Source of the DNA: Isoetes taiwanensis
Taxonomy: Eukaryota > Streptophyta > Lycopodiopsida > Isoetales > Isoetaceae
DNA: 64,000 bases
Direction of reading: 5' to 3'
Assembly: GCA_021234155.1 (NCBI GenBank)
Contig: JAJEKV010000013.1
Coordinates: 8,629,193 to 8,693,192, forward strand
Part shown: one piece after another, positions 8,081 to 64,000 of the stretch
Layout: each line of letters opens with the position of its first letter
Numbering within the stretch: the first letter of the stretch is position 1
Notes under the pieces: model-generated
What the model saw: the letters and a program-made list of their open reading frames with translations, nothing else
What the model was told of the DNA's origin: nothing
Databases searched by the model: none
Position numbers and translations under genes: made by a program

Positions 8081-9050
8081 CATAATAACAGGGGGTTTTC
8101 TTTGTGTTTTTGTACGCTTTTCACTAAGGTTTTCCTATGATTTCGTGATGTATTCAAATGGATGTACTAATGCGTACATCTAGAGTGCACCATTTCTGAG
8201 CCATTGATTTTAGCCTTTTTTTTTTTCAATGGTCAACAACCAATGGCTCACAACAAAAGCCCTTTTTTTGTGCGTGTGGTGCATAATGGGCACATGAAGG
8301 GCCATTGATTTTAGCCTTTTTTTCCAATGGTCAACAACCAATGGCTCGCAACAAAAGCCCTCTTTTTGTGTGTGTGGTGCATAATGGGCACATGAAGGGC
8401 TTGAAGGGCGCATGTAGTGCAATTTCCCCGCCGACAACACATTTCTTATCATAACTTTTGATCCAGAGCTCTGTTTGAGATGATTTTTATTGCGTTGGAA
8501 AGCTCTCTCCGAGATATTTTTGACAGTCTATGATATGGATATGTTTGGTTAAGTTATCTATGCTAAAACAGCAATTTTTCGGCCGGGTTTGGTAGGCTTT
8601 CACATCCTACCAGCTGATTAATACAGGATTGCGCTATTGGATATTGTTTTATGGCTCATTCCGAATGAAGCTTGCAAAAAATTACCATGCATTTTTAGAT
8701 TTTGAGGCAGTTATTAAGTAAATTCCAAGGCTTCTAGATCCTTGTGCTAACAAGCAAAAAAGTTTCCCACTTTGGTTTCTCACCACAAGAATCCATGGAG
8801 GCCAAAGGCTGCTGTTAAATTCCAGTTGAAAAATGTTTGTGTATGGGTGTTGCAAACTTTATGACTTTCAGAATAATGGGATCAATCTGCTCTATCTTTA
8901 TGGTAACTTTTACTTGTGTTCTATTTGTTTTATTGTGATCAAATTCAAAAGCTACAGGTGATGAAAGCCTCAAATGAATTCTAGTTTTTTAAATGAATTC
9001 TAGTTTTTTCTCGGTTTTGAATTCGGGGGTGGGGGGGGGGTGGCGTCCCT
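8080..9050 (-). repeat. Dispersed repeat copy A (LTR-element leader-like)
   Basis: This segment is the reverse complement of 20480-21417. Shared blocks include the CCCCCTGTTATTATG end, an array of AAAGCCCTYTTTTTGTG / CCAATGGCTCRCAACAAAAG units (8215-8400), and ATAACTTTTGATCCAGAG followed by GCGTTGGAAAGCTCT. The last block also occurs at 53820-53900. That wording is typical of untranslated leaders of plant LTR elements, although no PBS or gag is visible here. It joins a foldback at 9166. Confidence 0.75.
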
Positions 9051-13610: not shown

Positions 13611-15248
13611 ATGTTTAAGTGGGCAGGAGAGGAGATACACAAAACATTGCTGAAATTAATGAATATGGTATTGAAAGAGGGCTTCCCACGGGAATGGCAA
13701 ATAAATAGGGTTGTCCCCTTGCATAAAGCGGGTGATAAATCAGATCCCAGCAACTATAGGATGATTATGATCAGTAGCCTATATGCTAAGCTTTTTGCTA
13801 CTATGGTTAATAGTAAACTAAGCGGATGGGCAGAAGAAATGGGTGTACGGGCTATAGGGCAAGCGGGTTTTAGACCCAAACGGTCCACTACAGATCACTT
13901 GGTTACTTTGAGAGCAATGATGGATACAGTTACAGGAACAAGGAAACCACTTTATATGTTATTTGTAGATTTTACAAAAGCTTTCGACATGGTGGACAGC
14001 GACAATTTATGGGAACGTATGGAAAAACTGGGGGTGCCAAACGAACTAAAGCAAGCAGTCAAAATACTATACGAGAAGGTACTTGTGCAGCTATCTTTTC
14101 CTTATTTTAGAGAAGGCCAGGAACCAGTACTAAGCAACATAGGTGTAAAGCAAGGGTGTCCCATGTCTCCCACTCTTTTTGGATTGTTCATAGACCAACT
14201 AGAAGACTGGATGATGCAGAACGGAGGGGACGGTATGGCTCTAGAGAGGTTTGTGGTGTTCTTACTTTTATATGCGGATGATGTAGTGCTTCTGTCAAGG
14301 TCAATTGCTGGAATACAGAAACATTTAGATGGATTGGCTGAATTTTGTGACCATAAGAACATGAAAGTTAATATGGGAAAGACTAAAATAATCGTGTTTG
14401 GGGCAAACAAAGTGGATCACATACACCTTGTGTACAAAGGGGAACCGGTAGAACTGGTGGATTCATATAAATACCTAGGGATACAGGTTGATAAGAGTCC
14501 GAGTTGGAACTATGCTGTAGAGCAGAGGATAAATGGTGGGCTGAAAGCATTATATAGTATGCAGCGCAGCAGTAGAAAAAATGAGATATGGAACTTCCAA
14601 TTGAAAAAACAGTTATATGGGGTTCTAGTGCAAACAATATTGTTGTATGGCTGTGAGGTATGGGCTCCTGGTTTGGCTGAGGAGACTTGGAGGAAAATAG
14701 AAAAGGTACAGAAGAAGTTTCTCCGAACAGAGCTCGGTGTTAAGGCACAGACACCATATGACATGCTACTGGCCGAGTGTGGGATGACATCATTGCAATC
14801 AGAAGCCTTGTGCCGAACACTTAAGTATGTATGCAAGGTACAGGAAATGCCAGTATCAAGTTTACCACGATTGGCCTTAGAGGCAACGAAATGCAAAGGG
14901 TGGTATGCCGATATACAAAATTGGATGAGAAAGTGGGATTTAGACGTATCTGGATTGGCCGAACATCATGCGGATATTAGGGAGTGGGTAATGGAACATG
15001 TTATGGAGAAATCATGGAGAGTGCCAGAAGTCAAGAAGGAATATTACAGGCAGAATATCAGCCCACAGCTTCAGGTCCCAAGATATTTGAGAGAAGGCGT
15101 ATCATTAAAGCTAATTGGCAGAATGAGACTTAGCTCACATCATCTTGGCGTTGAAGTTGGGCGTTGGAGCAATATCCCCCATGAGCTGAGACTCTGTAAG
15201 CTATGCAAGATGGGAGTGGTTGAGGATGAAACGCATGTGCTTCTCTGA
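13611..15248 (+). CDS. LINE reverse transcriptase (ORF2 fragment)
   Basis: A 545-residue frame encodes the RT of a non-LTR retrotransposon, the enzyme that copies element RNA at the nicked target. Motifs in order: GFRPKRSTTDHLVTL (about residue 84), FVDFTKAFD (palm, first catalytic Asp), GVKQGCPMSP, LLLYADDVVLLS with the catalytic YADD at 14271-14282, KYLGI, then LYGCEVWAPG in the thumb and a C-terminal CKLCKMG...EDETHVLL zinc motif. The stop at 15246 is premature: relatives read ..HCPAY.. at this point and the downstream frame remains readable. The first Met is internal, because stops at 13551 and nearby cut off the upstream part. It is the best-preserved RT in the window and is probably inactive. 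Confidence 0.9.
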   Translation: MFKWAGEEIHKTLLKLMNMVLKEGFPREWQINRVVPLHKAGDKSDPSNYRMIMISSLYAKLFATMVNSKLSGWAEEMGVRAIGQAGFRPKRSTTDHLVTLRAMMDTVTGTRKPLYMLFVDFTKAFDMVDSDNLWERMEKLGVPNELKQAVKILYEKVLVQLSFPYFREGQEPVLSNIGVKQGCPMSPTLFGLFIDQLEDWMMQNGGDGMALERFVVFLLLYADDVVLLSRSIAGIQKHLDGLAEFCDHKNMKVNMGKTKIIVFGANKVDHIHLVYKGEPVELVDSYKYLGIQVDKSPSWNYAVEQRINGGLKALYSMQRSSRKNEIWNFQLKKQLYGVLVQTILLYGCEVWAPGLAEETWRKIEKVQKKFLRTELGVKAQTPYDMLLAECGMTSLQSEALCRTLKYVCKVQEMPVSSLPRLALEATKCKGWYADIQNWMRKWDLDVSGLAEHHADIREWVMEHVMEKSWRVPEVKKEYYRQNISPQLQVPRYLREGVSLKLIGRMRLSSHHLGVEVGRWSNIPHELRLCKLCKMGVVEDETHVLL

Positions 15249-15555: not shown

Positions 15556-20074
<4,519 letters not shown>

Positions 20075-21417
20075 ATGTTGGATAGGCATATTTACCCCTT
20101 ATTCCTTAATCTACACCGTACATAAAGTTCCTCGTTTGTGGGGTATGCAAGTACAAAATTTGCTATACTGTTCGCAAAATACTATAAGTTTTCAAGCGGA
20201 ATACTATATGGTGTTGATTTTGCACGTGCAAAATACAATTATGAGGGCTCTCGCTGCCCTACGTCACCCCCCGTGTGAATATGCACCCAAACCAAAGGGG
20301 GTTTAAGGGGGATTTTAATTTAAATGTGTTGGACCCAATGGTTGTGTTAATTAATGTCAATGGTAGTTATGTGTTGGTTGTTAATGTCAATGGTTGTTAT
20401 GTGTTGGTTGTTATGTGTTGGGGGATTTAATTTTTATATGTTGGATGTTAATGGTTTGTGTGACAAAAATTTTAGAATTCAAACCAGAAAAAAACTAGAA
20501 TTCATTTGAGGCTTTCATCACCTGTAGCTTTTGAATTTCATCACGATAAAACAAATAGAACATAAGTAAAAGTTACCATAAAGATAGAGCGGATTGATCC
20601 CATTATTCTGAAAGTCATAAAGTTTGCAACACCCATACACAAACATTTTTCAACTGGAATTTAACAACAGCCTTTGGCCTCCATGGATTCTTGTGGTGAG
20701 AAACCAAAGTGGGAAACTTTTTTGCTTGTTAGCACAAGGATCTAGAAGCCGTGGAATTTGCTTCATAACTGCCTCAAAATCTAAAAATGCATGGTAATTT
20801 TTTGCAACCTTCATTCGAAATGAGCCATAAAACAATATCCAATAGCGCAATCCTGTATTAATCAGCTGGTAGGATGTGAAAGCCTACCAAACCCGGCCGA
20901 AAAATTGCTGTTTTTGCATAGATAACTTAACCAAACATATCCATATCATACACTATGAAAAAGATCTTGGAGAGAGCTTTCCAACGCAATAAAGATCATC
21001 TCAAACAGAGCTCTGGATCAAAAGTTATAATAAGAAATGTGTTGCCAGCGGGGAAACTGCACTACATGCGCCCTTCAAGCCCTTCATGTACCCATTATGC
21101 ATCACACGCACAAAAAGAGGGCTTTTGTTGTGAGCCATTGGTTGTTGACCATTATGCACCACACGCACAAAAAGAGGGCTTTTGTTGTGAGCCATTGGTT
21201 ATTGACCTTTATGCACTACATACACAAAAAAAAGGGCTTTTGTTGTGAGCCATTGGTTGTTGACCATTGGAAAAAAAAAAGACTAAAATCAATGGCTCAG
21301 AAATGGTGCACTCTAGATGTACGCATTAGTACATCCACTTGAATACATCACGAAGTCATAGGAAAACCTTAGTGAAAAGCGTACAAAAACACAAAGAAAA
21401 CCCCCTGTTATTATGCT
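20075..21417 (+). repeat. Dispersed repeat copy B, inverted relative to copy A
   Basis: 20075-20260 matches the loop of the foldback at 9282-9495 in the same orientation. From 20262 to 21417 the sequence is the reverse complement of 9280 back to 8080, including the TTTTGATCC / GCGTTGGAAAGCTCT leader-like block and the AAAAGAGGGCTTTTGTTGTG units (three to four copies here, two in A). It truncates LINE C, so it arrived after that LINE or replaced its end by rearrangement. Confidence 0.8.
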
Positions 21418-23632: not shown

Positions 23633-25720
<2,088 letters not shown>

Positions 25721-28725: not shown

Positions 28726-29319
28726 TGTTAGTCCTGTGCCTCCTGGTACAGGACTATTCATACATACGACGAACCAGGTCAAGAACAAGGATCCACAGTC
28801 AGCCACGGGTCAGTCGTCAAAGGCCCAGCAGAAGACCCAGCAGAAGACCACGCAGTCAAAGGGCGCGCCTGCCGTCAAAAGAAGGCGCTCAGACAAGTGA
28901 CGGCCCGTCACCGCCCGCGTCAGCGTCAGCGTGATTCTAGGCACTTCAAGAGGCACCGCCAGCATTCCTGCAAATCAGGCCTCCTTCCAGGAGTCGGCAC
29001 CGAGATCAGTCAGAGTGTCTATATTGGGCCAAAGGCCATTGTACTATATATATGAGTAGAGCTAGCACATGAGTTTTTAGATGAGTTTTGAGTCTTGTCT
29101 CATTTCAGTCTTCTCTCGATTGCGAGAGCTCATGTATGTTCATCATTGATATCAAGGAAGCTTATCATTTTTCTCTCATTGTTCTCTTTTGTTCTGTTTT
29201 CTTCTTCCTGTTCTCTTCTTGCAAATCCCCGTGACATAGTCCCCCGGATTCTCCTGTTAGATCCACGGGTCCTCACAGAGGGCTGTCTTGCAGGAGTTCC
29301 CGAACCCAGACCCCAAACA
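28726..29319 (+). repeat. 5' LTR of the Ty3/gypsy element
   Basis: 594 bp. From 28897 onward it is virtually identical to the 3' LTR (one visible CC/CGC difference), but the first ~170 bp differ at many positions. It contains TACTATATATATGAGTAG at about 29040 as a likely TATA box. Confidence 0.95.
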
Positions 29320-29349
29320 CTGTCGCCGCTGCCGGGTTCTTCTGTCGCC

Positions 29350-31560
29350 ATGTCTGTTCGAAACTTCACGCCAGAAGAACTCCTTTCCCAGACGGCGTCT
29401 CGCTTGGAGCGCCATCATCGAAGGGAAGCTGTTCGAGACATGTATGGATCTGCTTATGACATTGAGGGAGGCCACATTCGGTCTAGGGCTCAGTCGGTGC
29501 CACCCACCCCTCGTGCCCTGTCTCGTCCCAGTTCCCCGCCTCAAGCGTGCAAACATTGCTCACAGCCTCAGTCCCCTCATCACTATCAGGAGCCCTATCA
29601 GGCTCAACCTTCTCAACCTTACTTTCATACCCCCGAACATGCCTACATCCATCACTCTTCTGGCCATACGCCTTTGCCTTCACAACCATCATCTCCCCCG
29701 GGTGGGCAGGGATATCCACATGTCTCTTTTGCTCCTCCCCAGGAATTTCCCTTCCCTACATTTCCCACCGCTCTTCCTGTTTACAACCTTACAGACCTCA
29801 AAACCAATACTCAGGCACCTCCAGTACCTCCTCCTCAGTCACCTCTTCATCAGGGTCCTTCAGACACCATGCCACCTTCAACTCCACCTCAATATAACCA
29901 CTATACTGTTCCTGTCCAGCCAAGCACTTTCACCTCTACCTTTCAGACCCTTAAGCTGACTTATCCCACCTTTGGCAACACGAAAGGCAAACCTTTAGAC
30001 CAAAGTGCTCAGGCCCACATGGAAGTGTCCTAAATGGTCATGCACAACCTCAACTGAAATTCCATATCTTTTCCACTACACTGCGTGGCTCTCCTCATCA
30101 ATGGCTCATGTCCAACAAAAGCTACTGGAAACAAGATTGGTCAGAAATGAGAACTGCTTTTCTTTCTCACTATAGGACCACGGATGATGATCAACTTCAT
30201 CTCAAGCAACTCAATGACCTTCAACAAGAGCCCACGGAGTCCGCCCGGGATTTTGCAGATCGTCTTCACATTCTGCTCAGCAAACTCAAGGAGTACCCCA
30301 CACAGAGCCAGATTTTGGTCTGGCTTCTCCAAGGCCTTCCTCCAGCTATCCGACTCATGACTGAATACCTGCGCCCGAAGACTTTGGAGCAGGCTATCGA
30401 CCTTGTCAATCACTCAGTTAATGTTTCCTCCCGTGGCGTGGCTCTTCAGGAGCTCCCTTTCATTCCTCCCGTCATGGTTCCACAGACTGCTGTCCAACCT
30501 CAACACGCCAATCTGCAGCGCAGTCAGATCTGGTGCCATATCTGCAAATATCAAGGCCACTTGGCGAATGAGTGCAACTCCACCAATGGCCCGCCTCATT
30601 GTAAAAGATGCAACATGTGCAATCATGCCACGGAAGAGTGCACTCGCACTCATCCTACATCTTTCCGCAACAAACTGGTTTATCAAGTGCAAACAACACC
30701 TCAGCCACAATCGCAATATCAGCAGCCACCAATGCAAGCGCAACCCAATCAACTCTACCAGCAACAGGAGCAACAACGGGGACCCAACACACGTCCTCCT
30801 TTTGATCCTTCTAAAGCTCAGTGTTATCACTGTCAAGAATGGGGTCATACCACCACGGCGTGTCCTCAACTTCCACAAGTTCAGGTGCAGCTTCCTGGCA
30901 CCAATCAGACCACATCGGTCCGCCTCACGGCTTACCAACTCTGGATTGCCAATGGCAAACAAGGCCCGCGTCCTGTTCTTCGGAAGCCACCTCGTGCGCC
31001 TCAGCAATCACGCTATCAACCAGCTCCTGCCAATCAACCTCAGATGGATCAACAAGCACAGGAAGAAATTTTTCAGGCTCTTAATCCTCCAGTCCAGCCG
31101 TCCAATTGGGTTGGTTTGGTTTCACGCCAGACCAGGGCGTCATGTCCCTTAACCATTATTCCTAATGGCACCCAACCTGCCTTTGCAGTCGACACAATTC
31201 CTCATGAAGAGGAAAAAAAGGTTCACTTTGCACCTGACTTGAAGAAACTCATGCCGCATGTCATGCCTAAAGTTCGCCAAAGCATTCTGAACCTCATGCA
31301 AGCTGCTGAAGGCCGCACGTTGGCTAATGTTCATGCCACCACTAGAGCTCAACAAAGACAAGAAGCACCTTCCACGTCTCAACCTCCACGCTCTCAGACA
31401 TATCCGAATATTGCTGCCGAGGTTGACCTACTCAAAGAAGTTGCTGCTTCATTACCACGCACTCCAGCACCTGTAGATCCAGCTGATCCTTTTTCTCATG
31501 TGCCTCTGGAACTCCAAGAGGAGCTGGCAAAAATCAAAATTCCTTTAAGTCTGGCAACAA
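29350..31560 (+). CDS. gag polyprotein of the gypsy element, with one frameshift
   Basis: The start ATG at 29350 (MSVRNFTPEELLSQ) lies just after the primer site. This first frame, with a long Pro/Ser/Gln-rich region, stops at 30031-30033. The gag core continues in another frame from about 30036: TLRGSPHQWL, WSEMRTAFLSHY, LKQLNDLQQEPTESARDFADR. Three zinc knuckles of CX2CX4HX4C type follow: CHICKYQGHLANEC (30535-30576), CKRCNMCNHATEEC (30600-30641) and CYHCQEWGHTTTAC (30822-30863). Gag forms the particle and binds element RNA. The second frame is open for 645 codons into the protease, far better kept than pol. The break at 30033 could be decay or a recoding site. Confidence 0.88.
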
Positions 31561-31599
31561 TTTTGAAACTCTGTCCTGCTCTCAAGGACCAGTTACCAC

Positions 31600-32045
31600 T
31601 CCCGACCGTTTTGGTTGGGGCTGTTGCTACCTCTACACCCACGGTCCATGCCACGGTGGGCAATCAACAAGTCAACCATGTTCAAATTGACGGAGGTAGC
31701 GCAGTTAATCTCATCACGGATAAACTCTGCAAACAAATGGGCATCAAACAACTCTATCGTGCCCCATATGACATCAAATTGGCTAATGGCCATATCACGC
31801 GACCTCAAGGCGTCACGCCTCTTCTTCACATCAACATTGGTGATCTCCGATTCCCCTTGGAATTTGGTGTTTGGAAGGCTGGAGAAGATCCAGGTGATTA
31901 TGAAATGTTGGTCGGCAGACCTTTTCTCCGCCGAGCCAAGAGTATCCATTCTTGGGCCACGGATGGGTTAGTCATCACCGATGGTCACCTCAATGCCACC
32001 ATGGACTTGGAAACAGGCAAGATCATTTCCGTTGACCATCTTTGA
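31600..32045 (+). CDS. Retropepsin-like aspartic protease domain
   Basis: It is the C-terminal part of the frame that carries the gag knuckles, ending TGA at 32043. The catalytic motif is IDGGSAVNLI at 31686-31715, where plant gypsy proteases usually have DSGSxxN. A later MLVGRPFLRRA matches the conserved GRPWL-like strand. It would process Gag-Pol. Fusion to gag in one frame is normal for this group. Gly replacing Ser or Thr in DSG/DTG may weaken activity. Confidence 0.8.
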
Positions 32046-33060
32046 ACCCTCTCTCTCCGACCACCGGTTAGGGGCGCCCGAATATCTATCATATTCAGGC
32101 TCCACACGTGAGTCCGCCTCTGTCATCCTACCCGAATATCTTTGATCCTTGGGGAGAAATGACTCTTGATCCGGACCAGGTATTGGCTGCTTTGCTTGAC
32201 CCTTACGACTCCTTGCAATCGAATCCAACGTGTTGATCACTTTTCAGATCTTTGAACCTCCTGCGGCTCCAGTAGATGTACACGCCGTCATGAAGCAACC
32301 TACGCTTGATGAAACTCGGCAACCTCTCTTTTTCACCACGCAGAATTACCCACGCATCTGTTATGCTTCAACCTCCTGCTCATATTGTCGGGACATGGAA
32401 GTTATCCCCTATATTCAGACTCACGGAAGTCGAGATTGTGGGCGTGGGCAACAATCGTTTGTCGCATTGCCGCAAATCTTCCGACACCTTATCGTAACAG
32501 GGCCGTCACACTCTTCAAAAAGTTCAAACACATTTTTAGCTGGAGCTACTGAGAGATCTTCGGGGGATCAACAAAGCCTTGGGGGAACTCACCATTCCTA
32601 CCAAATCGATGCGTCGCCCCGTTTAGCAACGACAGTACCAATTACCGTGATCGCGTCAAGGCGGAAATTGACAAACTCCTTGCTGCAGGTTTGATCTATG
32701 AGGTCAAACATTCTGAATGGGTGAGCCCCATCGTCATTGGCACTCAAACACAATGGAAAGATCCGCGTTTGCGTGGACTACCGAAAACTCAATCAGGCCC
32801 CGAGGGCGTGATCATTTTCCACTTCCCTTCCACGGACCGTGTTTACGGAAGAGGTTCTTTGGACATGAGATGTACTCCTTCATGGATGGTTTTTCCGGCT
32901 ACAATCGGATCTCAATCAAAGAATCTGATCAACTCAAGACTACTTTCACCACCCGTAGGTCACTTTTTGCCTACAAGGTGGTTCCTTTTGGATTATCAAA
33001 CTCTCCATCAACGTTTCAGCGCATCATGCTCTCGTTTTTCATGATTTTATGAAGGAAAAT
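32046..33060 (+). pseudogene. Ty3/gypsy reverse transcriptase, frameshifted
   Basis: The segment begins with low-similarity sequence, then RVKAEIDKLLAAGLIYEVKH (about 32652-32710) and SEWVSPIV, typical of the RT start. Further on, IKESDQLKTTFTTRR and AYKVVPFGLSNSPSTFQRIM (about 32920-33030) are canonical RT palm sequences. They sit in different frames, and the YxDD region near 33080 reads only FQDDFSAS after another shift. Several indels separate the blocks, so no active enzyme can be made. Confidence 0.8.
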
Positions 33061-33860
33061 CCTTCTTACAAATTTTTCAAGATGACTTCTCTGCCTCTGA
33101 GTTCCATGCGACCACCATTTGGATAAATTGGAACTTCGTCTTTCGAAATGTGATGAGTCCCAGGCATTAGTCTCAATCCAGAAAATGCACCTTTTCGCGT
33201 CACCGGTGTTACGTTAGGACACGTGAGTCGACAAAGCGGTATCACCGGATCTGCCAAAATCAGTTTGTGTGCTCAAGGCTCAAGCACCAGCCAATATCAA
33301 GGAGACACGTTCTTTCCTGGGTAAGGTCAATTATTACTCCACCTTCATTCCTGGACTTGCAGCCATTGCAGATCCCATTCATAAACTCACGGGTGATGAA
33401 TCCACATGGGCTTGGAATTCCCGGCGGATCTTTGCTTTCCAACAGTTGAAGCTCTTGCTTACTCGGGCCCGGTTCTTGTTCCTCCTCAATGGGACAAGCC
33501 CTTTCATGTTCATGTCGATGTCTCGGCGTTTGCTATTGGAGCTGTTCTTTCTCAAGAATATGATGCGCACACTGACAAACCAAACCGCTATGCCAGCCGG
33601 AAACTCAATTCTGCTGAGCGCAACTACTCTGCCCGCAGGCGTGAGGCCTTGGGTTTAATTTTTTCGTGTCCAACGCTTCGTCACTATCTTTTGGGCGGTC
33701 GGATCAAATTCTTTGTTGACCACCAAGCACTCCTTTATTTGATCAACAAATCCACGCCCGGGCTCGTTGGGTCCTCCTACGCAAGAATTTGCACCTTTGC
33801 AATTGTTCACAAAGGCGGGCAAATCTCATGTTGTCCCGGATTATCTTTCACGCATCCACC
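33061..33860 (+). pseudogene. RT thumb and RNase H, frameshifted
   Basis: TRSFLGKVNYYSTFIPGLAA (33308-33367) is the conserved thumb/connection motif. After a frame change come PFHVHVDVSAFAIGAVLSQE (first RNase H Asp), YASRKLNSAERNYSARRREA and HYLLGGRIKFFVDHQALLYL (33500-33740), the classical gypsy RNase H. The order is normal and the frame is interrupted. Confidence 0.85.
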
Positions 33861-35280
33861 GCGGATGATCCCTCCACTTTGGAGTCTCGGGCGCCTTTCA
33901 CGACGCTCAACTCTTTTCGGTCACGACAACACCACATTGGTTCCACGACTTTCAGCGGTATCTCCTCCGCAGCGCTCTTCCACCCGGAGGATGCCACGCT
34001 CTCTCAAACCAGCGACAATCCCGTCGACACCAATTTCTCCGTGGAGGTCCGTGACTACACCATGGTTGCAGGCCATCTTTACAAAAAGGGTAAGGATCTT
34101 GTCCTTCGGCCCGGTGTTCTCCCTCATGAGGTCCCGGATATTGTCCGAGAAGCCCATGAAGGGCTAGGTGGTGGTCATTTTCATGGAGACACCACGGCAC
34201 GCCAAAATCCTTCTTCTTTGGTTATTTTTGGCCCACGCTCTTCAAAGGCGCTCACGCCCGCGCCGCCGTGTGATGCTTGCTAAGCGTGTGGGGCGGCCCA
34301 CGGCCCGTGGCGGCTCTTCCCTTGGCCCGGTCGCCACGCCACTTCCCTTCAAAGCAAATGGGGAATGGATTTTGTGGGACCCATCGATCCTCTGCCGCGC
34401 ACACACGTGCCGCTACGATCCCAGTTCTCACCGACTACGCTACCAAATGGGCGGAAGCTTGCGCACTTCCGGACAACAACTGCGGCAAGCCGCGGCCAAG
34501 GTCATCTATCAACAAATCATCACGCGATTTGGCTGCCCCGCGAGCTGGTCGGTGATCGTGGTGTCCATTTTATCAATCATACCATCAAGGAGCTGGCGGA
34601 TTATCTCTTGATACATCATCACAAGATCACACCTTACTATCCTCAATGGAATGGTTTGGCGAAAGCACCAACAAAACTACGGTCACAATTCTCAAGAAAA
34701 TTTGTGGCGCTTCTACCACCGGCCGGCAAACCAAGCTTCCCTCTTCCCCTTTGGGCTTACAATACTTGTTTCAAAATAGCTACAGTCACACTCTTTCAAA
34801 TTGGTTTATGGTCAAGAAGCTCTCATGCCATTTGAATACATCCTTCCAACTCTCCGTTTTCAATGGCTCACCGCCCATAATTACTTTCTTTGCACTCAAA
34901 GAAAGGGTTTATCAATTGGAACAGTTGGATGAACTTAGACGGGATGCTTATATTAGTGTTCTTCATGGACAACAGGTTGCAAAAATCTTTACATGATAAG
35001 CGTCTCGAGACAAAAAAACATTCAAAGAAGGAGATTTGGTTCTTCTTTATGATTCTCGGTACAAAAATTTTCGGGTAAGCTAATGTTTTGATGGCTTGGC
35101 CCTTATCAAATTGTTCAAGTGGTGCAACCCGGCGTTTTCCAAATTGGTGAGTTAGATGGAACTCCATTACCTACACAACGGTTAATGGCTTTAAGCCTCA
35201 AAACATTTCATACCACGAAAGTGAAGCTCAAGCGGATCTTTGTTCGGACACAAACACAAATGAGATAGTGACTAAACCAA
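33861..35280 (+). pseudogene. Integrase, frameshifted
   Basis: Blocks in alternating frames show the zinc-binding region (HEVPDIVREAHEGLGGGHFH, 34127-34186), the core start (GMDFVGPIDPLP-like, 34360-34395), DYATKWAEACALP (34434-34472), ELVGDRGVHFINHTIKELAD (34543-34600) and NG.GESTNK (about 34650). These supply the three DDE positions. Many small indels separate them. The gene is dead but full length, ending near 35200. Confidence 0.8.
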
Positions 35281-35354
35281 ATGCATATTTATATTATAGG
35301 TGGAATTTTTTACAAAATGTGGGCCGCGACCAACTATTTCCGCTATGGGCGCGC

Positions 35355-35385
35355 CCTATATATAAAAAGCGGGCTCGAGCCCTAT
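35355..35385 (+). promoter_or_regulatory. Possible internal TATA box upstream of the third ORF
   Basis: CCCTATATATAAAAAGCGGG at 35363-35382 is a strong plant-type TATA sequence in a GC-rich context. It lies between integrase and the accessory ORF region, so a subgenomic promoter is possible. Confidence 0.35.
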
Positions 35386-35412
35386 CTACTAAGTCCTAAG
35401 AAGAAAAACCCT

Positions 35413-35847
35413 CTACTCCGGGTTAGGAGCGCAGGTGATACGCAGGATGTGGTAGAGATTATGCTCCGGGTCCCAAGGTGCGAGAATCACCTCCATCCGT
35501 TGGTCTTCGGATCGGGATGCTTTCAGCCATCCCGGCACACCACCCGTCCATCGCCATGCCACGGTTGTGGCAACGCCCGAGGTCCGACAATCCATCTTGC
35601 GGGTAATCCACTCCAAAGCGGTTTGAAGGCATAGTGCGGTGATCATGCAAACCGGTAGCGGAACATCTTGAGTGCCATCGGATGTCTTCGCTTCACTCCC
35701 GTTAGTCTTATTATATAGCCAACCGAGGAACTCCTTGTCGACATGGACCAATAAAAAAAAATCGCCAACGTGTTTGCAATGCAAGGCTGTTTCTAAAATG
35801 AGAATCTTTTCTCCCGCCGCATATCTAGCCATGGTACCTTCTGACAC
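35413..35847 (-). CDS. Antisense ORF of 144 codons in the gypsy element
   Basis: An open minus-strand frame begins MSEGTMARYAAGEKILILET and contains GDFFLLVHVDKEFLGWLYNK and WRWTGGVPGWLKASRSED. It opposes gag-pol and lies between integrase and the coiled-coil ORF. Some Tat-lineage elements carry antisense accessory ORFs at this place; no function is known for this one. I do not recognise a domain. It may be chance, but its length and amino-acid make-up look coding. Confidence 0.45.
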   Translation of the reverse strand: MSEGTMARYAAGEKILILETALHCKHVGDFFLLVHVDKEFLGWLYNKTNGSEAKTSDGTQDVPLPVCMITALCLQTALEWITRKMDCRTSGVATTVAWRWTGGVPGWLKASRSEDQRMEVILAPWDPEHNLYHILRITCAPNPE

Positions 35848-36214
35848 ATTCGTTTTAATGATATCCCACTTCGAGTTGCCAGCATTAAATACCCTGTCTT
35901 CTTTTCACGCCCGTCAACCATTAATGTGCGTCCTTTTGCCACCTGTCACATCTGATCATTCTCTTACGTCTCATCGCCACCGTTCATTGATTCTCCCTTT
36001 ACCATTTGGGGACTTAGCCAAAATTTTGCCTTTCAATGACCTCCTTCGCATCTGTCGCCACCTGGCATCATCAACGGTTGCTGGTTCGCCCTCATCATGC
36101 CCCTTCGCCTACACTTGTGCGCCCTAAAACCTTTTCGTCTATCTGCGTCTTCGTCTTCTGTTCTCTGCTCTCCGCCTTCGACACCCAGTTCTTTCTATTC
36201 CGACGCTCTTCGCC

Positions 36215-37981
36215 ATGGCTGCACCCAAATTACCTACCCTTCACACTTTTGCTCCAAGGGAACCGGCCCTTTTCGAGTCAGTATCTTTCTTGACGCCCAC
36301 TTTCCGTGAAGCCCTTGTTGGCCCAAATCGTGAAGTCGCGGAACGCCAGAAGCTTTATGAATTCTCACAAATGGAACTTCCGGCTCCAAATCCAGACCAA
36401 TTGAAGCAGTTCCTCGCTCACATCGTCAACAGCCCGCATGGATACACTACTATGGTCGATGGCACCACCATTTCGCTGACCCAGCACCTGATTTCTGAGG
36501 TATTCCATATTCCTTTGTAAACCCCTTGTTTATCTTGGGCTGCCTTACAGGATCCCAATGTCACTGAGTTTGGTGCTCCTGCTTATCAAGCGAACATGCA
36601 TCGCCTGACAAATATTGACAAGACCCATGAAACTTTTGTTAAGTTTCTGTGGCGAAAGTTCCTTGGGTATTCTATCAAGAACACCCATATCAATAAGCCT
36701 TTCTATAATTTGGTGATCACTGCTATCCGCTCCAACCACCACATTGATTGGCCCCAATTGTTGTTCTACCGCCTTCTTCAAGAGGTCGACCGTCTTAGGG
36801 CTGCCCCCTCTTCTATATCTGAAGTTTCAGTGGGTGGCCATCTTCAAGCCATCATCCGTCATTACTTTCCTCCAACACCTCCTCATTCTCATGATTCCAC
36901 TCAGCAGTCCCTTCCTCAGACTCACCAAGTTGGTACTTCACGCCCTTCTTCTTCTGGTCATGTCAACCTTCAGCACACGCATGTCACTGTCTCCTCCTCT
37001 TCTACAGAAACCAAGCACTCCAATCCTCAACATGTCTCCCAAACGTCACAAACAAGGCAACAGCTGGCTCCACCGCCTCAGCACCCTCGCCAGCTTTTGT
37101 ATCAATATCAGCAGGATGTTCAAACTGCTGCTCTCAAGTTACAAGAATCCCAGGAAGCTCTATTGAATGGGGTTCAAACGGCCCTGGAGGCCTCCGACGC
37201 GGTTCACCGCGACCTTCAAGCTGCTACCACGCAAGTTCATACTCTGGAGACCCAGCTTCAAGACAAGCACGAGGCTCTTTTACAGGCCCGCGAGGATCTC
37301 AAGGCTGCCCAACATCAGAATAATCTGCTTGCCGATCAGCAGGCTCAATTGCAGACCACCATTCAAGAATTATTGGAGCAGGTCAAGGCAAGAGAGACTC
37401 TCTTGGTTGACAAGGATAAAGACATTGCCAAACTGGACACGCTGTATACAGAACTCTCTCGCAATTACAACACTCAAGCCCAAGACCTTACAGCGCGTGA
37501 CGCTCAAATTGCCTCTTTGACAGCTCAGCTTTCCACGCAGACCTCTCAGCTCACATCTCTCCAAGATCAGCTTACGGAGGTTCAGAAACAGAAAATTCTT
37601 GATGACGCTGAGATTGCCGTGCTTCGACTCAATGTTCCTGGGCAATCCTCCTCACATGCCACGACTTCTCAGAAACGGGTCCGTGACCAGTCACGCCTTC
37701 TGTTCAAAAAGGAGAACCGGATCCGTGACCTCGAACAACAGCTACAGCAAGCCATTCAGTCTGCTGATGAGGCTCAGACCAAACTTGACGGCTATGTGAC
37801 CATTGCTCTCAACCTGCCTGTGGACTTCCCTATTCCTTCCAGTTATCTGGATTATGTGGTTGCCCGACGCCACCTCTTTCTTCTGAAGTGGCATGGGGCT
37901 GATGGTCCCGTTGATGTTCCCCTGTGCACTGCAGATTTTCTTCTTCAGAGTTGTTCAGCCAATGGCGTACATTTTTCATGA
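36215..37981 (+). CDS. Accessory coiled-coil protein ORF, N-terminal and middle part
   Basis: The ATG at 36215 is in a good plant context (GCCATGGC). The frame runs 589 codons to 37981 with a single internal TAA at 36518-36520. The segment after it is in the same frame (MHRLTNIDKTHETFVKFLWR..). The first ~260 residues look globular (FVKFLWRKFLGYSIKN, LVITAIRSNHHIDWPQLLFY) and recall a plant mobile-element domain seen in transposon-associated proteins, though I cannot name it with confidence. A Ser/Gln/His-rich linker follows, then about 200 residues of heptad coiled coil (VHTLETQLQDKHEALLQARE, IASLTAQLSTQTSQLTSLQD). It occupies the env position. No signal peptide or membrane span is seen. Confidence 0.65.
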
Positions 37982-39110
37982 TTTCTATCTGGCTGATACA
38001 CAGGACAAATTTAGAGATGGGCCACATCAGAACTTTCCGGGTGATCCCACACTTCAATGGTTGCTTTTGGATAACAACCCCTATCTGTCTGATCATGATC
38101 AGACACATGCTCTTCATCAAGAGTACATGCCTGAGCTTGCTCATCAATTGCCTCTCGGCGTAGGCTGAAGCCCAGCAACAGATAAGGAAGTATCACGGGA
38201 CATCCCGGGATCTTCCCTTTGCACAAGTTTATATCAAAGCACACGGCAGGTTACAATCAATCTGCGTGCTCTTACGGATAGCAAGGCGGTCCCCACGGGT
38301 TGGGATAGCCCTCCTGTAAACTCTCAGCTCCCTGCTTCTGTTTGGGACCATTGGTGCAAAGCTCTTGATCCGGACCTTGTCCGTGAATTCAGGGAGCAGG
38401 CTCAGCAGCCCACGCCCATGGGCATGGTCCCCTCTCCCTATGCTTCCCCGGGTGTCCCTCCGCCCCGGGTTCCTCTCCTCGATTGGCGTCTCCCCTTTTG
38501 GACCAAGGTCATGGATGGCCATCTTTGGATGGACTCACCTCGGATCTCGACGGATCTCCGGTGGGATCCCCGTTTTGTTCGCCGCTCCAATTGGGAGGAT
38601 GGTGCCACACTTGATAACACTACCAATTGGATCTATATTCCCAATGAGCGTGGTTGGCAACGCCCTGCTGATGCTCTTCATGGTCTTGACACCTTCTTGC
38701 AGCATGCCGCCACCTCACCGGATCCTTGATCCACCCACCGCCGTCAAAATTGGTTTTTACGTTTGCTCTCAAATGCATCTGGTCACTCTTTAAATCGGCA
38801 GCGTCCCATCTTTCACTGCAATCCGAATGCCAGCGTCAGTGCCTTCGGTCTCCAGACCTGCCTACTCATGGAGTGCCAGTTTGTTTCTTCTGAAGCCCAT
38901 GCTGCCCTTGAAGACATGGTGCGCTCTCATTTTCTCATTGACGCCGATCCTGCCCTTGGGCTCAACACTCCTCCTGCTCTTCAAATACGCCAGGATCTCA
39001 TTGGCACTTACCATAATGGTGCCCGTCCTCACTCCCGTGAGGATCACTTTCAGACTGATGGCTTCCCGCCCTCAGAGACACTTCCTCCTTTTCTTCACCC
39101 TGAGTGTCGT
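37982..39110 (+). pseudogene. C-terminal part of the accessory ORF, frameshifted
   Basis: After a shift near 37960 the reading continues as AYIFHDFYLADTQDKFRDGP, then TINLRALTDSKAVPTGWDSP, WDHWCKALDPDLVREFREQA, LLDWRLPFWTKVMDGHLWMD, WEDGATLDNTTNWIYIPNER, and further pieces up to the polypurine tract (..FLHPECRLVGG). Together with the previous part, the ancestral protein would be about 960 residues: N-terminal globular, coiled coil, C-terminal globular. The C-terminal part resembles nothing I can name. Confidence 0.55.
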
Positions 39111-39124
39111 TTGGTGGGGGGGAG

Positions 39125-39722
39125 TGTTAGTCACAATGCCTCCCCGTGCAGGGACTATTCATGCATCTGACGGACCAGGTCAAGAACAAGGATCCACGAT
39201 CAGCCGGGTCGGTCGTCAAAGGCCCAGCCGAAGACCCAATGCCAGAAGACCACCGCGATCAAAGGCGCGCTGCTGCCAAAAGGAGGCGCCGGACACAAGT
39301 GACGGCCCGTCACCGCCCGCGTCAGCGTCAGCGTGATTCTAGGCACTTCAAGAGGCACCGCCAGCATTCCTGCAAATCAGGCCTCCTTCCAGGAGTCGGC
39401 ACCGAGATCAGTCAGAGTGTCTATATTGGGCCAAAGGCCATTGTACTATATATATGAGTAGAGCTAGCACATGAGTTTTTAGATGAGTTTTGAGTCTTGT
39501 CTCATTTCAGTCTTCTCTCGATTGCGAGAGCTCATGTATGTTCATCATTGATATCAAGGAAGCTTATCATTTTTCTCTCATTGTTCTCTTTTGTTCTGTT
39601 TTCTTCTTCCTGTTCTCTTCTTGCAAATCCCGCGTGACATAGTCCCCCGGATTCTCCTGTTAGATCCACGGGTCCTCACAGAGGGCTGTCTTGCAGGAGT
39701 TCCCGAACCCAGACCCCAAACA
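39125..39722 (+). repeat. 3' LTR of the Ty3/gypsy element
   Basis: 598 bp, TGTTAG...AAACA, preceded by the polypurine tract at 39111-39124 and followed by the target duplication CTTTC. Confidence 0.95.
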
Positions 39723-39727
39723 CTTTC

Positions 39728-59491: not shown

Positions 59492-60192
59492 TTGGGAGCA
59501 GATCTGAGGTCTAATTCTCAGATCCAGGAGGTTTTGATTCCATTTACCGATCTAGAAGGTAATCCAATTTCGTTTTTCAAATTGAAGGGGGATTCCATTT
59601 CGTTTTTTCAATTTCAAGAACCTCAAGAAGAGGCAGAGATGGCTGTATTACCACCGATGGTGTGGGGTTTTCAGACAATGGGGATTCCAAAGTTTGATAA
59701 TCTGGTAGATCGGGATCCTTTGAAGCAAATTATGAAATTTGAGAGGTATTGCCAGCAATGTAAGTTACCGGCTGGTGATTATTTGCTTTGGTTTCATAGT
59801 TCTTTGCAAGATTTAGTGGAGGAATGGGCACAAACCCAGCCAGATACCATGACATATCAGGAATTAAAGGAAGCATTCATTGCTAATTATCAAGAAGTCC
59901 ATGGTAAGGAACCAATTGTACACAAAAGGAAGATGAATCAATCAGAGAGTATAATCAGAGATATAGTGTGGTTCTCAAAGCCGTGCTTCATTGGAAGATT
60001 GCAAGGAGTGAAGAAATGGATATCCAATGGTATGTGAAGGGGCTGAAACGAGCTATTGCTCATAAGGTGAAGGCTAAACAGCCTACAACATTGCTAGAGG
60101 CACAATTGTTTTCTAGGTATTTATCTTTGAAGTGCTATCTTGAGGGCCATGCTTGGTGCAAAATATCCTACGCAAGGTGGGAGCTCTACTAG
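59492..60192 (+). pseudogene. gag fragment of an LTR retrotransposon
   Basis: It follows the LTR and its primer region. The first frame (from 59492) gives IPKFDNLVDRDPLKQIMKFE, LPAGDYLLWFHSSLQDLVEE and WAQTQPDTMTYQELKEAFIA, the capsid-like wording of plant LTR-element Gag. After a one-base shift near 59965 the reading continues MDIQWYVKGLKRAIAHKVKA to a stop at 60190. Protease and pol are absent; the sequence abuts the 3' part of a minus-strand unit. It is a truncated, dead element. Confidence 0.7.
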
Positions 60193-60366
60193 AGAAGGTC
60201 CTATCTTAGCATGGAACTCAGATATGATGTCTTGGTAGAAGGGGGTGGCATTGATGGTGGCCTCCACCTTAACCTCCTTCTGGAAGACGGCAAAGACGTA
60301 GTTGATGTCGGCCTCGGCCACATGAGCTGTGGCGCTGTACCATCGCCTGAATGCAGTGGTTGCCAT
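60121..60366 (-). CDS. Short unrecognised protein (81 codons), probably 3'-truncated
   Basis: ATG at 60366: MATTAFRRWYSATAHVAEAD, then INYVFAVFQKEVKVEATINA and TPFYQDIISEFHAKIG. I do not recognise it. It is preceded by a good promoter context (TATA at 60477-60484 on the minus strand, telo-box-like AAACCCTAAA further up), much like the H3-like gene 2 kb away. The last ~25 codons overlap the end of the gag fragment on the other strand, so the gene is probably cut by that element. It could be a non-coding transcript start. Confidence 0.4.
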   Translation of the reverse strand: MATTAFRRWYSATAHVAEADINYVFAVFQKEVKVEATINATPFYQDIISEFHAKIGPSLVELPPCVGYFAPSMALKIALQR

Positions 60367-60530: not shown

Positions 60531-60656
60531 ATGATTCTAAGGTATTGCTATGCAAAAGACAGGTTAATCATGCTAAGGAGTGCATTCTAAGGGTCCTATT
60601 GTAATAATTCCATCTAATTTGGTGAAAGTTAGGCCAAGTTAGGACGATTCAAGTGT

Positions 60657-60733
60657 GACCACTCACACATTGCGCGGGGAACACTTTGGAGCATGGTCTA
60701 AAGTGGTCTGGGCGCACTTTGTGAGGGGTGGGG
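60657..60733. repeat. 77-bp hairpin repeat, copy 1
   Basis: Outer arms ACCACTCACACATTGCGC and GCGCACTTTGTGAGGGGTGG pair, and inner arms CACTTTGGA and TCTAAAGTG pair. Confidence 0.9.
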
Positions 60734-60860
60734 CCTTGTTTGGGTCAAAGATGATGCCAAACATGCAAACTAAGGATATAATCATGCATACTCGTCGAGA
60801 TAGGTGGAATTGTGTCCTTACTTGCGTCATTTGGACAAGTTTTGGCCTAGATCAGTGCTC

Positions 60861-60937
60861 GACCACTCACACAGTGCGCGGGGAACACTTTGGAACATGG
60901 TCTAATGTGGTCTGGGCACACTCTGTGAGGGGTGGGG
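60861..60937. repeat. 77-bp hairpin repeat, copy 2
   Basis: Starts 204 bp after copy 1. Its ~30-bp upstream flank (TTGGACAAGTTTTGGCC..ATCAGTGCTC) is shared with copy 3. Confidence 0.9.
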
Positions 60938-61064
60938 CTCCATTTGAGTTTGGGTTGGCCAATTTCTACAATTTAAGGGTCAAATCCTACTAAACAAAGT
61001 GAGCTGAGTTGAATGGTGTCATTACTTTCTGCATTTGGACAAGTTTTGGCATAGATCAGTGCTC

Positions 61065-61141
61065 GACCACTCACACAGTGCGCAGGGAGCACTTTGGAAC
61101 ATGGTCTAAAGTGGTCTGGGCGCACTCTGTGAGGGGTGGGG
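61065..61141. repeat. 77-bp hairpin repeat, copy 3
   Basis: Starts 204 bp after copy 2. It lies about 120 bp beyond the stop codon of the H3-like gene. Confidence 0.9.
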
Positions 61142-61259: not shown

Positions 61260-62418
61260 CTAGAACTCCTTCTTAATGTATTTAGCTAGCCTTATATCCT
61301 TTGGCATGCATGTCACTCTTTTGGCATGCATTGCACATGCTACCGCGTCTTCAAAGTGCTGGACTATGTACTGCTCGGCCGCCTCCTGTAACGCGAGCAA
61401 CATGTCGTCTGTAACCCGCTTCGAGTTGTCGAACTCTTGCAAAACTTCCCATGTCAGCCTCACGAAAGCAGCTCTTGGGATGAGAAGGCCATAACTCCTC
61501 TGGAAATGCTTGGTCTCTCGAGCAGCTCTGGAAAAACGTGAGTCAGCCTTTCTCTTCATGGGCTTCTTCGGGGGAGCTGGTTTCTTAGGTGGCGGCTTCA
61601 GAGTGTTCTTCTTGGTCGGCCGGCCTCCTTCGACAAAAGTAACCTTGTGCTCCTCATAGTATTTAGAGTATTCTTCGTGCATTTTCATGTACGAAGTATA
61701 CTCTTTCAACTTCTTTCTGTACTCAAGATCCTGCTTGAGTACATATGACTCCCGCTGTGGCCTCGGCTTCTTGTTGCTGTCGCTCGGTGCTTTGGGGACG
61801 GCCATCTGGGGTACGGGAGTGCTCCTGCTACTGCATCTTCTTCCTCGCGTCTTGTATTCGAGGGTCCTGAGCCCTCACCACCCTTCTTTCCTCATCGACT
61901 CGATTCGGATGAGGGCCGGAAGGTTTCTCGAGGGGGTCGGGCTCCTGAATGGCGACTCCTTTGGCGGGAGTCGTCTTCAACTTCCTCTTTGTGTCCTTGG
62001 GCAGTGCAGGGCCTTTGCCCTTTTCTGCCCTCAGCTTCTCCCGCTCCTCCCGTCACCTTCTCTTCTCCTCCTTCTTTTGCTTCTTTTCTTCCCTCCTCTT
62101 GCGTCGCTCTTCCTTCTCCCTGCGGCGCTCTTCTTTTGTCTTCTTTTCCTCCGTCTGCTCGCCATCCCTCTTCCTCTTCTTGCTCTTCTTTTCCGTCTTC
62201 TCTAAATCCTTGAAGAGCTCTCTCTCGAGCTCTCTAGCCAACATTTCTGCAGCTTCCTCCTCGTCGAGGTCGAGCTCTGGTGGGCTGCTCGGCTCCTCCT
62301 TCTGTTCCCGCCTGGCTCGGTCTTGAGCCCGACGGGCCTTCTGCTGCGCTGCCCGCTCTTGGGCGCTGGTATAACCAGGGGGCACTGTGATTCGGGCGGT
62401 TTGTTTGGTGCAGGCCAT
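61260..62418 (-). CDS. Histone H3-like protein with a long charged insert
   Basis: Exon 1 from ATG 62418 begins MACTKQTAR, matching the H3 tail (ARTKQTARKS) with R2C, K9I and S10T, followed by Glu/Lys/Arg-rich sequence. The frame stops at TGA 62055-62053. Splicing GT at 62056 to AG at 61831 (226 bp, phase 2) joins it in frame to exon 2 (61830-61260), giving a predicted 310 residues. Exon 2 carries a Lys/Pro-rich region and then a full H3 fold: AARETKHFQRSYGLLIPRAA, FVRLTWEVLQEF, MLLALQEAAEQYIVQHFEDA, CAMHAKRVTCMPKDIRLAKY. It aligns without gaps to canonical H3 from alpha-N to alpha-3. The loop 1 length equals normal H3, so it is not clearly CENH3. The intron is purine-rich and mostly open, so the break may instead be decay (CGA to TGA plus a frameshift). 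Confidence 0.75.
61831..62056 (-). other. Predicted intron of the H3-like gene (or decayed coding)
   Basis: Minus-strand ends are AG|GTGACG and ATGCAG|T. The sequence is GC- and purine-rich, and one frame is open for 74 codons after the TGA (..KGPALPKDTKRKLKTTPAKG.. to KKMQ then TAG). That is unusual for a plant intron. Confidence 0.4.
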
Positions 62419-62504: not shown

Positions 62505-62550
62505 GGAACCCTAATTTTCTATTTATAGGTAGAGGAAATTTAGGGTTCGG
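62505..62550 (-). promoter_or_regulatory. Telo-box and TATA promoter of the H3-like gene
   Basis: On the minus strand: CGAACCCTAAATTTCC, then CTCTACCTATAAATAGAA (TATAAATA at 62527-62520) and AATTAGGGTT. This lies about 100 bp upstream of the ATG. Telo-boxes are common in plant promoters active in dividing cells, including histone genes. Confidence 0.65.
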
Positions 62551-62633
62551 ACCTGCAATTCCATATTTGGCCAATCTAGAGGGCATTAGTGTAGATATGA
62601 GGAGTACATTAGGTTTATTTAGCCAAAAAGCAT

Positions 62634-62711
62634 CCACCACTCACACAGTGTGCAAGGAGCACTTTGGAGCATGGTCAAAAGTGGTCTGGGTGCACTCTGT
62701 GAGGGGTCACC
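62634..62711. repeat. 77-bp hairpin repeat, copy 4
   Basis: CCACCACTCACACAGTGTGC.. to ..GTGCACTCTGTGAGGGGTC. It lies about 105 bp upstream of the TATA box of the H3-like gene. Confidence 0.9.
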
Positions 62712-62845
62712 TCTTTTTGGGTCCAATTTTCAATTTACAAGGGCTTCTTTGTGTTTTAACATGCAAAACTAGCTAGAATCTAAGCAATAAGCTGAACTGC
62801 ACTGTTAGATTAGCTAAATTATACATCTAACTAGGTCAACATGAG

Positions 62846-62924
62846 TCCACCACTCACACAATGCGCGGGGAGCACTTTGGAGCATGGTCCAAAGTGGTTT
62901 GGGCGCACTCTGTGAGGGGTCACC
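62846..62924. repeat. 77-bp hairpin repeat, copy 5
   Basis: Starts 212 bp after copy 4. Copies 4 and 5 also share the ACCTCTTTTTGG flank that follows. Confidence 0.9.
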
Positions 62925-63118
62925 TCTTTTTGGATGATTTAGGTTGGTTCTTGCTAAAACTTATTACTAACTTAGCATTAACCTATTTATTACACTAGAA
63001 ATTGGAAAAAAAAAATTCCAATTTTCGAGGTTCCTACTTGGGTGCCCAAGGCTTGAGTCTACTGTTAGTCCTATGGGAAAAATGGTCAGTGCTCGATCTT
63101 GGTCTACCAAGATCATGA

Positions 63119-64000
63119 TCTGATACCACTGTGACGTCCCCTGCTTCCTCTACGGTGTACACACTGTATCAGAAGACGGAGCATTCCCCCTGTCAGCCAA
63201 ACTGGCAGGGGCCATCCACCTGACTCCACTCCCAGTGGAATGAGCCAGCAAGGGAAGAGTGGATGTGTCATTCACCCGTCTCCCTTCGAGTCGATCTATC
63301 TGCGGAAGCGTGAGCAAAGATGAGCATATGATACAATATAACAATACAATCACCTTGAAGGGTGAACACATCATAACATCATCAATACAACAGCATCAAC
63401 ATGAACAATAACAGTAAGGGAAAAACCTATCCCAGGGCTCTGACTCAAGGGGGTATGACTGACGTCTAGGGCCTCCAGAAGTCATTGCAGACAGAATTCA
63501 TGGCAAATGGATGTGGCTGGCATAAGAACATAGCTTAGGGTAGTCCACTCCATCCGCCCCTCCCGTGCACACTTTGCAGAGTAGGCTGAAAAGCATTGGG
63601 GCCTGACCGTAGCCTGCCAGGTGAATAGCCAGAGGGGCTACTACTACTGGGTTGCATCTCCCCAGCCCTGATGAGGCAGGAGGGGAGTCACCTCCCCTCC
63701 AGAGGCATCAATGCCCATCGTAGGCGGCTAGAGGGCCACTGTCCGTATTCGACTTGAACTCAATGGAAGGTGACGCATCACCCCACGAGTGTCGAGCTCA
63801 TGCCTTGCCCACACTCAGTGACAAGCCATTAAGCCTAGCCCACATAGACCCCCGATAGGCCTTACTACCAGAGGGGTCAGTCTGTGATGAGACAAGTTCC
63901 TCCTTATCACCCGGCCTAGCCCCGCCACCCACAACCAGGCAGGCTCCTGTGCACAGGCCGCATATAGTTGGGAACTAGTAGGCTATCTAAGATCATCTGC
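63119..64000 (-). mobile_element. Minus-strand LTR with initiator-Met primer site (runs off window)
   Basis: On the minus strand the sequence ending GGGGACGTCACA at 63130 is followed by GTGGTATCAGATCATG. TGGTATCAGA is the usual initiator-Met primer-binding site directly next to a 5' LTR that ends in CA. So 63130-64000+ would be the LTR (left end not in the window), with the internal region pointing toward lower coordinates, that is toward the H3-like gene. I see no gag or pol between 60.2 and 63.1 kb on this strand. Confidence 0.6.

Follow-up and report, generated by a model that had tools for sequence, protein, structure and literature searches.

The H3 locus and its surroundings

The window, that is, the whole 64,000-nucleotide stretch of Isoetes taiwanensis DNA analysed here, carries on its minus strand an H3-like gene that is almost certainly the first open reading frame (ORF1), encoding an H3 variant, of a Ty3/gypsy LTR retrotransposon, in a copy that is decayed and truncated at its 3' end (Table 1). 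The ORF that starts at 62418 opens with MACTKQTARITVPPGYTSAQERAAQQ and continues into a Glu/Lys/Arg-rich stretch; two in-frame stops and at least one frame change upstream of the H3 fold divide ORF1 into three pieces, which are parts of one protein disrupted in this copy. The fold in the last piece matches the Pfam Histone family (PF00125, E 4e-23, 82 bits, cut-off 26), solved H3 chains in the PDB (phmmer, E 8e-22) and, at 48-53% identity, three ORF1 proteins of the type B elements described below (tblastn, E 1e-18 to 1e-20). It aligns with host H3 without gaps from alpha-N onward (51% identity) and has a Loop 1 of canonical length. A structure model of the last piece predicts helices at 89-103, 111-124, 133-163 and 168-180 with middling confidence (mean pLDDT 74.5, pTM 0.36), and its top fold matches are nucleosomal H3 chains (E 4e-6 and weaker, with high rmsd).

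Table 1. Features of the H3-carrying element in the window
Feature	Positions	Strand	Remarks
5' LTR, inner part	63130..64000	-	extends beyond the window into neighbouring DNA (L029)
Primer-binding site TGGTATCAGATC	63117..63128	-	1 base past the LTR
Two units of the repeat found at 60593..61141	62624..62933	.	between primer-binding site and ORF1
TATA-box-like TATAAATA	62520..62527	-	candidate from sequence reading; upstream of ORF1
ORF1, first piece	62056..62418	-	MACTKQTARI and Glu/Lys/Arg-rich stretch; ends at TGA 62053-62055
ORF1, middle piece	61828..62052	-	frame of the first piece; ends at TAG 61828-61830
ORF1, last piece	61260..61805	-	linker and H3 fold, own stop, different frame; 181 codons
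H3 histone-fold core	61263..61526	-	alpha-N to C-terminus; tblastn, phmmer against solved H3
Three repeat units	60593..61141	.	set 204 nt apart, after ORF1 and ahead of ORF2; shared with L030 and L031
ORF2 remnant, start only	60121..60366	-	DNA identity to L030 and L032

A first-pass annotation, made from the letters alone, had described an H3-type fold, gaplessly alignable and with no extended Loop 1, behind an H3 tail start (MACTKQTAR) and a long charged insert, and all of this is real and lies on one strand. It had also predicted a single protein. The window copy with its stops and frame change is not a working gene and does not provide such a protein, whereas three related copies (L037, L039 and L048) encode ORF1 in one open frame and need no splicing.

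Of the 20 loci L009-L028, 16 match the LTR of the window copy in DNA next to ORF1 (11 loci over 117-150 nt at 74-81%, five over 61-68 nt at 82-87%). The alignment of this LTR with the relative L030 carries on into L029 7-577, and the LTR ends in ...GTCACA, as that of L010 does. We take TGGTATCAGATC to be a primer-binding site (PBS) of the initiator Met tRNA type; TGGTATCAGAGC stands at the equivalent place in 12 of the 20 loci (L010, L011, L013, L014, L017-L019, L021, L024-L026 and L028). The ORF2 remnant, for which no Pfam match was found, shares 88% DNA identity with L030 4300-4527 and 86% with L032 1383-1700, and an ORF2 homologue lies in the continuation of both stretches. Similarity to the relatives ends at about 60106, and the 5' LTR is the only LTR of this copy in the window. 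Searching the window by tblastn with the gag-pol of L013 and the pol of L010 revealed no gag-pol of the H3 element, the weaker matches at 32650-34766 belonging to a different element. An observation on type A elements, the family of the window copy, is that imperfectly palindromic repeat units flank ORF1 (window, L030 and L031), where they might serve regulation or packaging. Adjoining the break point, a plus-strand gag-like ORF at 59492-60037 has a weak Retrotrans_gag match (E 0.057), and the element to which it belongs has perhaps interrupted the H3 element.

The window holds further repetitive features. A second LTR element at 28893-39727 is bounded by direct repeats (28893-29324 and 39295-39727, 98-100% alike), between which there is Ty3/gypsy-type pol similarity and, after pol, an extra sense ORF (36596-37981, 461 aa) that looks coiled-coil by eye. 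LINE-like reverse transcriptase ORFs were recognized by eye from the ORF list on the plus strand at 13611-15248, 18093-20125 and 24441-25247, and a 665-nt long inverted repeat (8326-8990 and 20489-21153) is 96% complementary, its arms about 11.5 kb apart.

Two types of H3-carrying elements

A DNA search of the I. taiwanensis assembly (1,658,258,908 bases, 1110 contigs) with the 1159 bases of the window gene gave 1027 first-look candidates, 40 of which, the window included, were scored; the others have 73-88% identity over their main match. Besides the window, 19 of these type A copies (L030-L048) were read, mostly in the surroundings of ORF1 only. ORF1 is open from end to end in three of the 20 copies, namely L037, L039 and L048 (406-414 aa, beginning with MARTKQ, or MACTKQ in L037, and extending through the whole fold), and broken or incomplete in the rest. 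LTR, PBS or ORF2/gag context was found at the window, L030, L032 and L033, and none at L031, the fourth with long flanks. In L030 together with L050, the H3 ORF1 is accompanied by the PBS, gag, pol and an ORF2 homologue that is distant (two queries gave E 2e-8 and 8e-6); no type A 3' LTR was found when L030 was compared with L050, and the scanned ORF of L050 has no chromodomain match. Two type A ORF1s that both carry R2C, L037 and L046, lie 8 kb apart on the same strand (G000:C1080, 2.008 and 2.016 Mb) and are possibly a tandem duplicate.

A Histone profile search of the genome returned 8704 first-look candidates. Among the 150 that received a score, fifteen match from profile position 2, as host H3 does, and 135 begin later; 130 of the latter have no internal stop, as counted from the scored list, which is ordered by score and therefore biased to whole copies. 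Twenty loci (L009-L028) were fetched, chosen mostly for long open frames. Nineteen are not host H3 and all of these are retrotransposon-like, their fetched DNA containing ORF1 in 19, ORF2 in 18, gag-pol in 18 and an LTR in 17 cases, and the host H3 locus L022 showed no ORF2, gag-pol or LTR in the 2 kb fetched. In these type B elements ORF1 encodes 411-459 aa (13 copies aligned) in the order conserved, unrelated N-terminal domain, Gln-rich or charged linker and H3 core; the N-terminal domain had no Pfam match in the three proteins scanned, and the core shares 83-89% of its residues with host H3.

The type B element L010/L049 is the one element in which both LTRs were demonstrated (about 1.68 kb, 93% alike, TG...CA ends), flanked on both sides by the 5-bp target-site duplication CAATC. 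It encodes a Ty3 capsid, protease, RT, RNase H, integrase and a chromodomain (E 6.6e-8) and has no ORF2; the same gag-PR-RT-RH-INT order with chromodomain holds for L013 as far as fetched. By eye, part of the aromatic cage is missing from the chromodomain at the C-terminus of the L010 integrase, which resembles those labelled type II in the excerpts of PMC6317226. A conserved ORF2 of about 465 aa lies between the H3 ORF and gag in L019, L026 and L023, and two scanned type B ORF2s had no Pfam match. Across the relatives, the layout reads LTR - PBS - ORF1 (H3) - ORF2 - gag-pol (chromodomain) - LTR.

Types A and B form one lineage by pol, since 10 of the 12 type B loci compared have a pol 71-80% identical to the pol of L030 (L016 58%, L017 47%), as against 29-34% for other gypsy RTs (L029 and the window). 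Their H3 cores share 41-56% identity, and the remainder of ORF1 is not visibly alike.

Conserved core, altered tail

Ten core positions, R49, R69, R72, R83, H113, K115, R116, T118, D123 and L126, which we take to serve DNA contact and H4/H3' pairing, are kept in 13/13 type B cores, and each of them is kept in 13-15 of 15 type A cores. Type A cores also carry the changes K56R, R63P, K79D, F84V and R129Y, the last four of which could weaken nucleosomes.

The tail is a different matter, and the canonical tail with K4, K9, K27 and K36 is found in neither type. Among 19 alignable type A starts (L034 was excluded as unalignable), T3, K4, Q5 and R8 are invariant, R8 by way of five different codons. 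Position 2 is Arg in 14, Cys in three and His in two; position 9 is Ile in 17 (ATC in 10, ATT in seven), Thr in one and Lys in one (L040). The earlier claim that K4 is kept thus extends to all 19 starts, and of the reported changes the one at K9 is family-wide and the one at R2 is not. ARTKQTAR is kept in type A, K4 is retained in this type only, and residues beyond position 9 are unlike H3. In type B, the H3-like free N-terminal tail is absent. Replacement of the K27/K36 region, also noted in the first reading, holds by eye as replacement or shortening in types A and B, the region being shortened and altered in type B. A remnant of STGGK has weak support in type B1 (24/5000 shuffles) and little in type B2 (279/5000). 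The idea that type A has an insertion at K9 in a tail otherwise kept from G12 to the fold found no support, as 872 and 1180 of 5000 shuffles scored as well.

Selection on ORF1

In type B, the H3 core had a median dN/dS of 0.043, the N-domain one of 0.115 and the linker one of 0.204, computed from the 26, 17 and 19 of 78 pairs, respectively, whose dS did not exceed 1. The type A core gave 0.101 (56 of 105 pairs); most pairs were dropped with dS > 1. The other parts of the three open type A copies gave medians of 0.28 at the start and of 0.50 and 0.14 before the core, and their charged insert yielded zero usable pairs. The type B loci came from among the best histone scores, which makes their values a biased number, and the test was therefore repeated, by codon positions only, on 16 copies selected through ORF2. 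Core DNA was present in 14 of the 16 (401 bases fetched), and 12 of these 14 cores, two of them only partly covered, were free of gaps and stops in the aligned part; differences from L026 at codon positions 1/2/3 numbered 49/12/216. The corresponding counts for 19 type A copies that had been chosen on DNA similarity, compared with the window, were 182/103/465, and five of these copies had indels. The H3 core of the element lineage is under purifying selection, ORF2-selected copies included. Together with the open copies, this runs counter to the outcome that would have spoken against the first reading, namely paralogues that are degenerate pseudogenes only. Such selection reflects use of the fold and says nothing of use in chromatin.

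Origin of the H3 core and relatives elsewhere

A maximum-likelihood tree of 44 cores, with few CENH3 rows, one of them typed from recall, placed type A in one group (100/100) and type B in one group (96/91), the latter with host H3 (89/77) and the former on a long unplaced branch. A joint clade of A and B was rejected (p 0.015), a rejection that is unsafe because of the long branches; neither a grouping of type A and plant CENH3 (p 0.23) nor one of A and B with host H3 (p 0.15) was rejected. H3 may thus have entered the lineage once or twice.

Among the best 120 of 5186 protein hits to type B ORF1 (BLASTP query coverage 22-47%), none shared the rest of ORF1, a set behind which a weaker-scoring relative could hide, and the top hits opened (P0015, P0016 and P0018) are strings of histone domains. 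The search with type A ORF1 gave 12 hits with coverage of 19-44%, none of them sharing the remainder of ORF1. Transposon ORFs are frequently masked prior to annotation, and the lack of such hits is for this reason weak evidence that relatives outside this genome are absent.

Extra ORFs in other selfish elements

Extra ORFs (eORF/aORF) beside gag-pol are known from plant LTR elements (excerpts of PMC7264820, PMC6317226 and PMC11963269), and the Isoetes H3 ORF, being sense and upstream of gag, occupies the eORF-5'F position. A close parallel is found in Ty3/Gypsy elements of the orchid Phalaenopsis, whose captured AlkB m6A demethylase ORF is likewise of host type and kept through diversification; AlkB is an RNA demethylase, while the Isoetes element has a core histone in ORF1, and extra ORFs of plant LTR elements most often have no known conserved domain, unlike the H3 ORF1 (PMC9289625, in excerpt). 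In the text available from the three surveys, the word 'histone' occurs not at all in PMC7264820 and PMC11963269 and once in PMC6317226, for what chromodomains bind, and it is absent from the available main text of the I. taiwanensis genome paper (PMC8566536). Viruses offer another comparison: bracoviruses encode H4, and phycodna- and mimivirus-related genomes a single H3, so that selfish elements with host-type core histones are known there, and one virus-encoded histone has 68 extra N-terminal residues. These are viruses, however, and 'retrotransposon' does not occur in the main text, as available, of the review (PMC9145170). We found no retrotransposon-encoded histone in the literature searched, beyond which lay preprints and most subscription papers, and novelty is unproven.

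Possible roles of the element-encoded H3

Plant transposon silencing is written largely on histone H3, the protein wrapped by DNA, through which the host normally silences elements of this kind. The best explanation overall, which we favour tentatively, is an H3-carrying Ty3/gypsy element whose H3 variant works in element chromatin. A little more guardedly still, we infer that the element H3 takes the place of host H3 in the element's chromatin and is unable to bear silencing marks. The ORF1 protein would enter the nucleus, pair with host H4 via its conserved H3 core and be incorporated into nucleosomes, with the greatest benefit on newly made element cDNA or on proviruses, and the N-terminal domain or charged insert may provide targeting to element DNA or protein. 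Its tail would be unable to carry the plant transposon-silencing marks, type A keeping the K4 side with mostly Ile at K9 and no K27 region and type B having no H3-like free tail, so that element chromatin would resist heterochromatin. A role in chromatin fits because the nucleosome face is constrained while the tail that receives K9/K27 methylation has been rebuilt. Several points count against it: the proposed mechanism derives from sequence comparison; in type B some 300-370 residues precede the core in the fused protein and could impede its normal deposition; two type A copies have residues other than Ile at position 9, one Thr and one Lys (L040); type A has R63P, K79D, F84V and R129Y; and the model of the window piece is of middling confidence and fits H3 chains with high rmsd. 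A transposon protein acting against epigenetic silencing, as proposed here for the Isoetes element, is known for VANDAL/VANC in Arabidopsis, where VANC is a sequence-specific anti-silencing protein and not a histone (PMC5735166 and PMC10398659, in excerpt).

By analogy, type A ORF1 might even be a natural 'oncohistone', whose ARTKQTAR-Ile tail would bind host H3K9 methyltransferases and block them while the remainder sits in nucleosomes, and we regard this as improbable. H3K9M, H3K27M and H3K27I similarly place an aliphatic residue at a methylated lysine, in a tail otherwise kept (excerpts of PMC5030085 and PMC6562757); H3K9M traps the methyltransferase Clr4 in fission yeast (PMC5030085), and H3K27I lowers K27 methylation less than K27M according to the review as available (PMC6562757). 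The oncohistone proposal is bold because our literature search found no source for K9I and because the residues after position 9 differ from H3. If true, a retrotransposon would be disarming its own silencing pathway.

In one rival explanation, the element H3 would mark chromatin, at the element's own copies or at chosen sites, to be read by the integrase chromodomain or another element protein that steers insertions. We think this unlikely. In its favour, the L010 integrase has a chromodomain, with an aromatic cage that is partly missing by eye, and the binding partner of such type II chromodomains is reported, in the part of PMC6317226 available, as not yet identified; against it, there is no sign of the chromodomain binding the ORF1 tail. 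Slightly less likely again, the ORF1 protein could act as a nucleocapsid does and condense the element's RNA or cDNA inside the particle or the pre-integration complex, possibly with H4. The retained DNA-contact arginines, the very basic linkers and the histones that some DNA viruses encode for themselves (PMC9145170, in excerpt) agree with such packaging, for which, however, Gag already brings a zinc knuckle (weakly matched in Pfam), and the core kept on both the H4 and the H3-H3' faces exceeds what RNA packaging needs. It is quite improbable that type A is a captured CENH3 whose action at centromeres promotes insertion or transmission at these sites. Syzygium CENH3 is the best database match and shares H53, F54, P63, A65, T85 and V108 with type A, several alpha-N/alpha-1 residues of plant CENH3 are like those of type A, and the tree test leaves a common clade standing. 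Yet the free tree does not join the two, the type A core is 46-54% identical to CENH3 against 48-54% to host H3, and, unlike plant CENH3, type A has no longer Loop 1 and no Trp84, is multicopy and lies inside a retrotransposon.

A host H3 transcript captured once and carried along as a neutral passenger has precedent in the capture of hundreds of cereal genes by transposons, LTR elements included (PMC7264820, in excerpt), and is very improbable in view of the median core dN/dS of 0.02-0.10 and the third-position excess. Less probable than any other is a gene of the host, or a histone variant that was domesticated, simply lying beside repeats: the ORF is open in some copies, against which stand the 40 candidates scored for the window family, the stops in the window copy and the element context at all examined long-flanked loci named above except L031. 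An intact ORF, a single or few copies and surroundings free of transposon sequence, as expected of a working host gene, are not what the window copy presents. Copy number, the LTR/PBS/ORF2/gag-pol context, Loop 1 and selection thus reject or lower a host H3 variant, CENH3 and a simple histone pseudogene. The first-pass annotation had listed centromeric, germline and selfish-element H3 variants side by side; the LTR, the primer-binding site, ORF2 and gag-pol in relatives and the many copies genome-wide, facts beyond its reach, decide for the selfish element, nothing supports a host germline variant, and a centromeric origin of type A is unsupported.

Implications

If the favoured reading, an element H3 at work in element chromatin, is true, a retrotransposon lineage with its own H3, its core conserved and its tail rebuilt, would represent a direct attack on silencing or a bypass of it. 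Whether a mobile element can determine the chromatin at its own copies through a histone that it provides becomes a testable question. A core histone would join the list of host genes that retrotransposons have retained, and what plant annotations give as H3-like gene models may belong to transposons.
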